NCBI RefSeq assembly: GCF_025399835.1
Contig: NZ_JAODVR010000001.1
Coordinates: 1,550,001-1,614,000 of the forward strand
Direction of reading: 5' to 3'
Origin: Haloarchaeobius sp. HME9146
Lineage (GTDB): Archaea > Halobacteriota > Halobacteria > Halobacteriales > Natrialbaceae
DNA length: 64,000 nt
In this document: in pieces, positions 3,024-27,160 of the stretch
How positions within the stretch are numbered: the first letter of the stretch is position 1
How the letters are laid out: each line of letters starts with the position of its first letter
Notes under the pieces: generated by a model
Seen by the model: the letters and a program-made list of their open reading frames with translations, nothing else
Databases searched by the model: none
What the model was told of the DNA's origin: nothing
Made by a program: the position numbers and the translations under genes

Positions 3024-3821
3024 ATGAGCGACGAGGAGGGGAACGGGGAACGGGCAGTCGAGTTGTTACAGCAGGTCGGCCTCAAGGAGTACGAATCGAA
3101 GGCGTTCGTCACGCTGACTGGGGCACCGGAGGGTACTGCTCGGTCTGTCAGCGACCAGAGTGGGATTCCACGGCCACGCGTGTACGACGCGATGCGGGTA
3201 CTCGAGTCGAAGGGACTGGTCGAGACGCAGCACACGACCCCACAGAAGTTCAGGGCGGTCTCCATCGAAGAAGCGGTCGCTATCCTCCGACGTCAGTACG
3301 AGGCGCGCTTCACGGATCTGGACGACGCCCTCAAACAGATAGAGCGCGACCAGCGCCCGTCGGACCAGCCGTCCGAAGAAGTATGGAGCTTGTCCGGTAG
3401 CGAAGCGGTGACCAGTCGGATGCTCCGGGTGTTCGATAACGCCGATTCAGAGCTCGTCCTCCTGTTCGGTGACGACAGCCTCCTCACGCCGGACCTGTTC
3501 GAGAGCCTCCGCGACGCGGTCGAGCGAGACATGGACGTGACAATCGGTGTCCTCGACGACAAGAGCCGCAAGCGCATCGAGCAGTCTCTCCCGGGTGCGA
3601 CAGTGTTCGCGTCCGGATTGGACTGGCTCACTGTGCAGGGCGACGACAAGACGCAGGTCGGCCGGTTCCTCCTCGCCGACGGGAACGTGCTGTTGGTGAG
3701 TTCGCTCGGACCGCACAGGAGTCCAGCAGTAGAGTCGGCGGTATGGGCGGAAGGCGTCGGCAACGGACTGGTCGTGATCGCCCGTCGGCTGTTACGCGCG
3801 GGGCTGGGCGACAAAAAGTGA
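3024..3821 (+). CDS. TrmB-family transcriptional regulator (paralogue, divergent)
   Basis: The 265-residue protein matches the gene at 1946-2725 over its whole length. It has V-E-L-L-Q-Q-V-G-L-K-E-Y-E-S-K-A-F-V-T-L as the first helices, I-P-R-P-R-V-Y-D-A-M as the recognition helix and K-G-L-V-E-T-Q in the wing. A helical linker leads to a C-terminal domain containing L-V-L-L-F-G-D-D and M-D-V-T-I-G-V. The two genes probably arose by duplication and inversion. TrmB-like proteins sense sugars or other metabolites and bind DNA as dimers. No metabolic operon adjoins the pair, so their targets lie elsewhere or are themselves and the small gene at 1604. Confidence 0.88.
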   Translation: MSDEEGNGERAVELLQQVGLKEYESKAFVTLTGAPEGTARSVSDQSGIPRPRVYDAMRVLESKGLVETQHTTPQKFRAVSIEEAVAILRRQYEARFTDLDDALKQIERDQRPSDQPSEEVWSLSGSEAVTSRMLRVFDNADSELVLLFGDDSLLTPDLFESLRDAVERDMDVTIGVLDDKSRKRIEQSLPGATVFASGLDWLTVQGDDKTQVGRFLLADGNVLLVSSLGPHRSPAVESAVWAEGVGNGLVVIARRLLRAGLGDKK

Positions 3822-25614: not shown

Positions 25615-25734
25615 GTTCGGGCTGGAATCGCTCGACACGGGCTCCTTGTGAACCAGTATCAGTACACTGAATAGCACACGCGCCGTCCTGGTAACTGGCC
25701 GTTCTTCCGACACACCGATGCGGATTGCCCAACA

Positions 25735-25754
25735 TTTACTATGTTGCGAGTAAA
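25735..25754. promoter_or_regulatory. TrmB-type operator overlapping TATA box of the dehydratase gene
   Basis: Within TTTACT-N8-AGTAAA lies an exact match to TACT-N7-GAGTA (25737-25752), the sequence described for the sugar-responsive regulator TrmB of Halobacterium salinarum. It overlaps the downstream edge of the TATA-like box ATTTACTA, which sits about 25 bp before the ATG at 25764. A site in this position would repress. Confidence 0.65.
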
Positions 25755-25763
25755 TCACGAGGT

Positions 25764-27002
25764 ATGGGAATCGATTACTCGGACCTTCACGATCCGAACG
25801 CGGAGTACACGATGCGTGAGCTCTCCGGCGAGACGATGGGAGTCACGCGCGAGCGCGGCGGCGGCCGGGACGTCCAGATAACGGACGTCCAGACCACGAT
25901 GATCGACGGGAACTTCCCGTGGACACTCGTGCGAATCTACACCGACGCAGGCGTCGTCGGCACCGGTGAGGCCTACTGGGGCGCGGGCGTCCCGGAGCTC
26001 ATCGAGCGCATGAAGCCGATGGTCGTCGGCGAGAACCCGCTCGACATCGACCGACTCTACGAGCACCTCATCCAGAAGATGTCCGGCGAGGGCTCCGTCG
26101 AGGGCGTCACCGTCACGGCCATCTCCGGCATCGAGATCGCCCTGCACGACCTCGCGGGCAAGATTCTCGACATCCCGGCGTACCAGCTGCTCGGCGGCAA
26201 ATACCGCGACGAGATGCGCGTCTACTGTGACTGCCACACCGAGGAAGAGGCCGACCCCGAAGCCTGTGCCGACGAGGCAGAGCGCGTCGTCGAGGACCTG
26301 GGCTACGACGCCCTCAAGTTCGACCTCGACGTGCCCTCCGGCTTCGAGAAGGACCGCGCGAACCGCCACCTTCGCCCTGGCGAGATCCGGCACAAGGCCG
26401 AGATCGTCGAGAAGGTCACCGAGCGGGTCAAGGACCGCGCCGACGTGGCGTTCGACTGCCACTGGACGTTCTCCGGTGGCTCCGCGAAGCGGCTGGCCAA
26501 CGCCATCGAGGACTACGACGTCTGGTGGCTCGAGGACCCCGTGCCGCCGGAGAACCTCGACGTGCAGGAGGAGGTCACGAAGTCCACCATCACGCCCATC
26601 ACGGTCGGCGAGAACCGCTATCGCGTGACCGAGGAGCGCCGCCTCATCGAGAACCAGGCGGTCGACATCATCGCGCCCGACATGCCGAAGGTCGGCGGCA
26701 TGCGCGAGACCCGCAAGATCGCGGACGTCGCCAACCAGTACTACATCCCCGTCGCGATGCACAACGTCTCCTCGCCCGTCGCGACGATGGCCTCTGCCCA
26801 CGTCGGCGCGGCCATCCCGAACGCGCTCGCCGTCGAGTACCACTCCTACGAGCTCGGCTGGTGGGAGGATCTGGTCGAGGAGGACGTCATCGTCGACGGT
26901 TACATCGAGGTGCCGGAGAAGCCGGGTCTCGGTGTCACGCTGGACATGGACGCCGTCGAGGAGCACATGGTCGAAGGCGAGACGCTGTTCGACGAAGCGT
27001 AG
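25764..27002 (+). CDS. enolase-superfamily sugar-acid dehydratase (probable gluconate dehydratase)
   Basis: The 412-residue protein belongs to the mandelate racemase/muconate lactonising group. The N-terminal capping domain is followed by a barrel. Visible are L-K-F-D-L-D-V-P (catalytic Lys region), F-D-C-H-W (metal Asp), W-W-L-E-D-P (metal Glu), V-G-E-N-R (metal Glu) and A-M-H-N-V-S-S (catalytic His). Length and motifs match the gluconate/galactonate dehydratase of the semi-phosphorylated Entner-Doudoroff route in haloarchaea; a pentonate substrate is possible. ATG 25764 fits a leaderless message. A TrmB-type operator sits on the promoter. Its final codons, F-D-E-A-stop, are repeated downstream. 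Confidence 0.87.
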   Translation: MGIDYSDLHDPNAEYTMRELSGETMGVTRERGGGRDVQITDVQTTMIDGNFPWTLVRIYTDAGVVGTGEAYWGAGVPELIERMKPMVVGENPLDIDRLYEHLIQKMSGEGSVEGVTVTAISGIEIALHDLAGKILDIPAYQLLGGKYRDEMRVYCDCHTEEEADPEACADEAERVVEDLGYDALKFDLDVPSGFEKDRANRHLRPGEIRHKAEIVEKVTERVKDRADVAFDCHWTFSGGSAKRLANAIEDYDVWWLEDPVPPENLDVQEEVTKSTITPITVGENRYRVTEERRLIENQAVDIIAPDMPKVGGMRETRKIADVANQYYIPVAMHNVSSPVATMASAHVGAAIPNALAVEYHSYELGWWEDLVEEDVIVDGYIEVPEKPGLGVTLDMDAVEEHMVEGETLFDEA

Positions 27003-27160
27003 CGAAGCGAGCCTGTCGGTGTTCGACGAGGAGTGAAACGACTCGTCGAGCCAGCAAATCTCCGATTTGCGTTGTTTGACGAGGCGTAAGCCGAAGTCAA
27101 GCTCGTGAAGCTCTGCTTCGCGGTGTTTGACGAAGCGTAGCGAAGCGGAGCTTCGTCAAA
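26984..27160 (+). repeat. repeated 3'-end cassettes and hairpins downstream of the dehydratase gene
   Basis: The gene's last codons, L-F-D-E-A-stop, recur as V-F-D-E-E-stop (27019-27036), L-F-D-E-A-stop (27072-27089) and V-F-D-E-A-stop (27123-27140). The last two are in the original frame. Interspersed hairpins are GCAAATC/GATTTGC (27054-27070) and an 11-bp perfect stem TTTGACGAAGC/GCTTCGTCAAA (27126-27136 with 27150-27160). GCGAAGCGAG- and GAACGAAGTGAG-like words, common in haloarchaeal intergenic repeats, follow up to about 27195. The rest, up to the kinase start at 27344, holds only a TATA-like region near 27314-27332. Confidence 0.7.

Follow-up and report, generated by a model that had tools for sequence, protein, structure and literature searches.

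The promoter of a predicted sugar-acid dehydratase gene of Haloarchaeobius sp. HME9146 overlaps a palindrome that is very likely the operator of the genome's own TrmB orthologue, through which the dehydratase would be repressed when sugar is lacking and released when sugar is present. This reading draws on the window (the whole stretch of DNA analysed, 64 kb in length), on the remainder of the genome and on comparisons among related genomes.

A predicted TrmB operator on the dehydratase promoter

The palindrome reads TTTACTATGTTGCGAGTAAA and contains an exact TACT-N7-GAGTA core (25737-25752), the operator pattern of Halobacterium salinarum TrmB being TACT-N7-8-GAGTA (PMC4158304, PMC3794607). 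An exact core at this place had been claimed in the initial annotation, and it proves to be the sole match on both strands of the window, where 0.08 would be expected; the longer form, TTTACT-N8-AGTAAA, likewise occurs once even when up to two mismatches are allowed (expectation 0.07). Since 6 of 100 shuffled windows also contain at least one exact TACT-N7-GAGTA, the site by itself is only mildly unlikely by chance, and on the comparisons presented below it is position and conservation, not sequence rarity alone, that set the box apart from a chance occurrence.

Haloarchaeal transcription usually starts at or near the ATG. The left half-site would thus be the TATA element, which on a presumed leaderless mRNA would occupy -29 to -22 relative to the ATG, and the right half-site would fall between TATA and the start (Table 1). 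The operator ends 9 bp before the ATG, which bears out the earlier description of a palindrome overlapping a TATA-like element ahead of the start codon.

Table 1. Features of the dehydratase locus, the TrmB orthologue and its predicted boxes (positions refer to the window unless a contig is given)
Feature	Position	Strand	Basis or remark
BRE-like CAAC	25730..25733	+	Adjoins TATA element; role inferred; AAA in most relatives
Palindromic TrmB-type operator (predicted), TTTACT-N8-AGTAAA	25735..25754	+	Sequence and conservation in relatives
TATA-like element, TTTACTAT	25735..25742	+	Bases common to left half-site; box-to-ATG distance fixed in relatives
Right half-site, GAGTA	25748..25752	+	Between TATA and start codon; columns CGAGTAAA conserved
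Sugar-acid (probable D-gluconate) dehydratase, 412 aa, enolase superfamily	25764..27002	+	PF13378 206 bits, PF02746 53 bits
TrmB orthologue	contig C1:2712309-2713355		NF047392 614 bits, cut-off 500
Exact boxes			Before trmB, glucokinase, pyruvate kinase (pyk), MFS/Usp pair, dehydratase and alpha-amylase MalA
Related box, TTCACTCAGGGCCGAGTGAG			Before ppsA
Related box, TTACTCGACTCCGAAGTA			Before gapII

The product of the gene has both the N and C domains of the enolase superfamily. In NCBIfam, models of sugar-acid dehydratases give the highest scores, none of which reaches its cut-off, and NF040790, the equivalog for bifunctional gluconate/galactonate dehydratase, gives 209 bits against a cut-off of 750. 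The haloarchaeal dehydratase is a branch separate from NF040790, and for that reason gluconate as the substrate is a probable assignment that we infer from homology. Orthologues are about 92% identical in many Haloferax species, and the gluconate dehydratase of the semi-phosphorylative Entner-Doudoroff pathway was characterised in Haloferax according to the account in PMC10817205, which cites Sutter 2016. At the other end of the gene, the last codons, CTGTTCGACGAAGCGTAG, are repeated as three more degraded copies just 3' (26983-27147 of the window, at a spacing of 34-53 bp), and comparable repeats are present 3' of the dehydratase gene in several other genera.

Conservation of the box among relatives

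In 69 of 80 named dehydratase loci, the palindrome stands 8-10 bp ahead of the start codon, and 63 of these 80 relatives show zero to three mismatches to TTTACT-N6-CGAGTAAA, a level (three mismatches or fewer) reached by 0.2% of shuffled promoters. Across 58 distinct promoters, conservation amounts to 1.5 bits per column in the half-sites, 0.36 in the spacer and 0.2 in the flanks; three A columns at -5 to -3 before the box are also conserved and resemble a BRE. The box is absent from the dehydratase promoters of Haloarcula-type genomes, Halonotius and some others. Haloarcula-type dehydratase promoters (L094, L095, L096, L100, L124, L125, L128) share a different block, roughly CTCTAnACTTTTGTnACGGGG, situated some 40-60 bp ahead of the start codon.

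The TrmB orthologue and its predicted regulon

The initial annotation had made its TrmB link depend on an orthologue in the genome, and had cautioned that the regulators in the window need not include it. Both points are settled by a single gene: a TrmB equivalog well above the NF047392 cut-off is present, so the link does not fall for want of a regulator, and it lies outside the window, 1.1 Mb from the dehydratase gene. The protein carries the HTH domain PF01978 and the sugar domain PF11495. When contact residues were assigned by position and spacing from the table in PMC4158304, Tyr56-Asp57 fell in the HTH recognition helix and Gly331/Glu337 were spaced as in that table; the DNA- and sugar-contact residues thus appear to be kept. 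PF11495 has five strong matches in the genome (the orthologue and at least four more), and no paralogue scores above 156 bits against NF047392, leaving the orthologue alone above the equivalog cut-off. Within the window itself, 2063-2350 and 3063-3545 give weak TrmB-family matches (23 bits to PF11495; 65 bits to NF047392), neither of which is the orthologue.

Pattern searches of the genome, combined with inspection of chosen promoters, placed exact TACT-N7-GAGTA at 17 distinct places (24 strand matches, vs 5 for the reversed pattern), six of which are promoters of sugar genes or of trmB. MalA has a divergent neighbour that weakly resembles an oligosaccharide amylase. A variant of the box is found in the promoter of gdh, which is followed by gfcR. 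In line with the promoter scan proposed in the initial annotation, the same or a closely related box lies at trmB, ppsA, gapII, pyk, glucokinase and gdh. With two mismatches allowed, the genome was no richer in matches than the reversed control (190 vs 204), and for this reason the analysis kept to sites that were exact or had one mismatch, or whose position is fixed across species.

A scoring matrix trained on dehydratase promoters alone was then applied to trmB, ppsA and gdh. The trmB promoter has the box at one fixed distance in 26 of 30 relatives (mean score 9.1 vs -1.9 when shuffled; none of 100 shuffles reached it), and at ppsA it keeps a constant place some 61 bp upstream in 13 of 24 (7.2 vs -3.2; 0/100). 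At gdh, in the gdh-gfcR arrangement, all 14 promoters scored high (mean 23.3 vs -2.8; 0/200), and five of five further cases bring the total to 19/19. Matches at trmB and ppsA are weaker than at the dehydratase and gdh. The ppsA box stands above the TATA element, about 61 bp before the start, as expected for activation, while the gdh box adjoins BRE/TATA about 31 bp before the start, a repressing arrangement by the Haloarcula criterion. At pyk, about 41 bp separate the end of the box from the assumed start. This genome has glucokinase, gdh and the dehydratase, yet the bacterial-type GAPDH domain PF00044 was not found above cut-off and only a weak match to the archaeal type II was obtained.

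Co-occurrence of the box and trmB

The trmB orthologue is missing from 56 of 391 genomes of the order. Among the genomes that hold the dehydratase (47 with trmB and 16 without), the dehydratase box occurs in 37 of 47 vs 1 of 16, giving a Fisher p of 3e-7 in which shared ancestry is ignored; the trmB-less genomes come from about five genera, which limits the independent cases to about five. By the strict rule, the box is lacking in ten genomes that have both trmB and the dehydratase, in G036 by a narrow margin. G356, of genus g11, is a genome with trmB and no box. The lone trmB-less genome with a box, G346, is an assembly of 160 contigs from a genus that otherwise has trmB, and a gap in the assembly may explain this exception. 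Some of the dehydratase copies found where trmB is lacking are more divergent (69-80%), and these may not be orthologues in the strict sense. At the level of sequence, the link between TrmB and the dehydratase that the initial annotation had drawn is supported by the presence of the orthologue, the shared boxes, their conservation between genera and the lack of the box in nearly all trmB-less genomes that have the gene.

Alternative readers of the box

The gfcR genes were identified with the dedicated model NF045507; a PF00156 search did not name GfcR. The g11-type order, with gfcR directly before the dehydratase gene, is seen at L283, L304, L307, L316 and L303, the order elsewhere being gdh-gfcR, and the genus with gfcR directly before the dehydratase is mostly trmB-less. 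At L275 (G000:C1:1491200-1493300) gdh and gfcR overlap, the gdh box is near-invariant, and gfcR has an apparent conserved TATA-like promoter of its own, CACTATAAAAACTGCC, inside the gdh end. That gfcR stands strictly under the gdh box is a proposal weakened by this internal promoter and by the boxless stand-alone gfcR genes.

GfcR, a phosphoribosyltransferase-like activator of glucose catabolism, is reported to activate the gluconate dehydratase in Haloferax, and the box could in principle be its operator, with TrmB not acting on the dehydratase. Gene order lends this some weight: gfcR immediately follows gdh, a gene with a very strong box in its promoter, and in genus g11 it immediately precedes the dehydratase gene. 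In the 58 distinct promoters, moreover, no conserved element other than the box was seen within the 30 bp upstream of it, and in Haloferax GfcR has been reported to activate genes of sugar catabolism (PMC11519228). However, boxes also occur at ppsA and gapII, both TrmB targets, and at trmB itself, whereas gfcR genes with their own promoter have none, and a site on the TATA element fits a repressor rather than an activator. Genomes of g11 keep gfcR without the box and, G356 excepted, without trmB. G015, a single contig, has no trmB, an intact dehydratase with gfcR retained directly upstream of it, and no box at either the dehydratase or ppsA. Since GfcR is kept here while trmB and box are both absent, TrmB rather than GfcR is the likely reader, and we regard an assignment of the box to GfcR as improbable.

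Another TrmB-family protein of the genome might instead use the box, either by itself or competing for it with the orthologue, given that the at least four further proteins with PF11495 belong to a wider family with a common fold and perhaps common half-sites. We consider this very improbable: the orthologue has a box in its own promoter and alone passes the equivalog cut-off, and in G015, which is without the orthologue but has weaker family members, the box is absent. That the palindrome reflects no regulator, merely a constrained TATA element joined by chance to a right half-site, would account for the TATA-like left half, where such an element is expected anyway. Yet conservation of the right half (CGAGTAAA) comes close to that of the left, unlike that of the spacer and flanks, the spacing is fixed, and most trmB-less genomes that keep the gene have no box, so that chance seems scarcely credible.

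Proposed mechanism and comparison with known systems

Its position over the TATA element suggests that the box serves repression relieved by sugar, and TrmB sites that overlap or lie at the promoter are associated with repression at Pyrococcus furiosus malE and at repressed targets generally (PMC4158304; PMC10817205). In the model we favour, with the TrmB orthologue as reader, a TrmB dimer would occupy the two half-sites when glucose is lacking, covering TATA together with the sequence as far as about -10, and would keep TBP/TFB or RNA polymerase away so that the dehydratase is off. Binding of sugar would cause TrmB to leave the DNA and the gene to be transcribed. From boxes well upstream of TATA the same protein would activate ppsA and gapII, a single regulator thereby toggling between sugar breakdown and gluconeogenesis.

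The predicted regulon resembles that of H. salinarum TrmB (VNG1451C) in operator sequence, in the orthologous regulator and in the targets ppsA and pyk, and there, too, TrmB activates from upstream sites and represses from sites at or below the promoter (PMC4158304, PMC3794607, PMC10817205). Unlike in H. salinarum, which itself does not use sugars for energy, the operator here lies on a gluconate-dehydratase promoter, and glucokinase and amylase genes have the same box. The promoters of gdh, the MFS transporter, Usp, ppsA and gapII, boxed here, are bound in Haloarcula hispanica by ChIP; in contrast, TrmB is mainly an activator in that species and has no ChIP peak at gluconate dehydratase (PMC10817205), and Haloarcula-type dehydratase promoters are without the box. 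P. furiosus TrmB at malE offers a further parallel, in that its repressor palindrome lies on BRE/TATA and blocks polymerase recruitment (PMC4158304), although its spacer is shorter (TACT-N3-AGTA) and the sugars and genes are others.

The dehydratase would accordingly be a new target of a known TrmB regulon, although it may already be listed in a Haloferax TrmB study. More tentatively, and with more doubt than conviction on our part, TrmB in sugar-using haloarchaea might control all of the entry into the semi-phosphorylative Entner-Doudoroff pathway by holding down gdh and the dehydratase and limiting GfcR via the gdh-gfcR operon, forming a coherent feed-forward switch. The parallel absence of box and trmB offers natural comparisons for testing. 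Haloarchaeal TrmB is known chiefly as a regulator of gluconeogenesis; if the present reading is true, it would be a two-way switch in sugar users, acting via a conserved operator at gdh and at the dehydratase, the first two steps in breaking down glucose.
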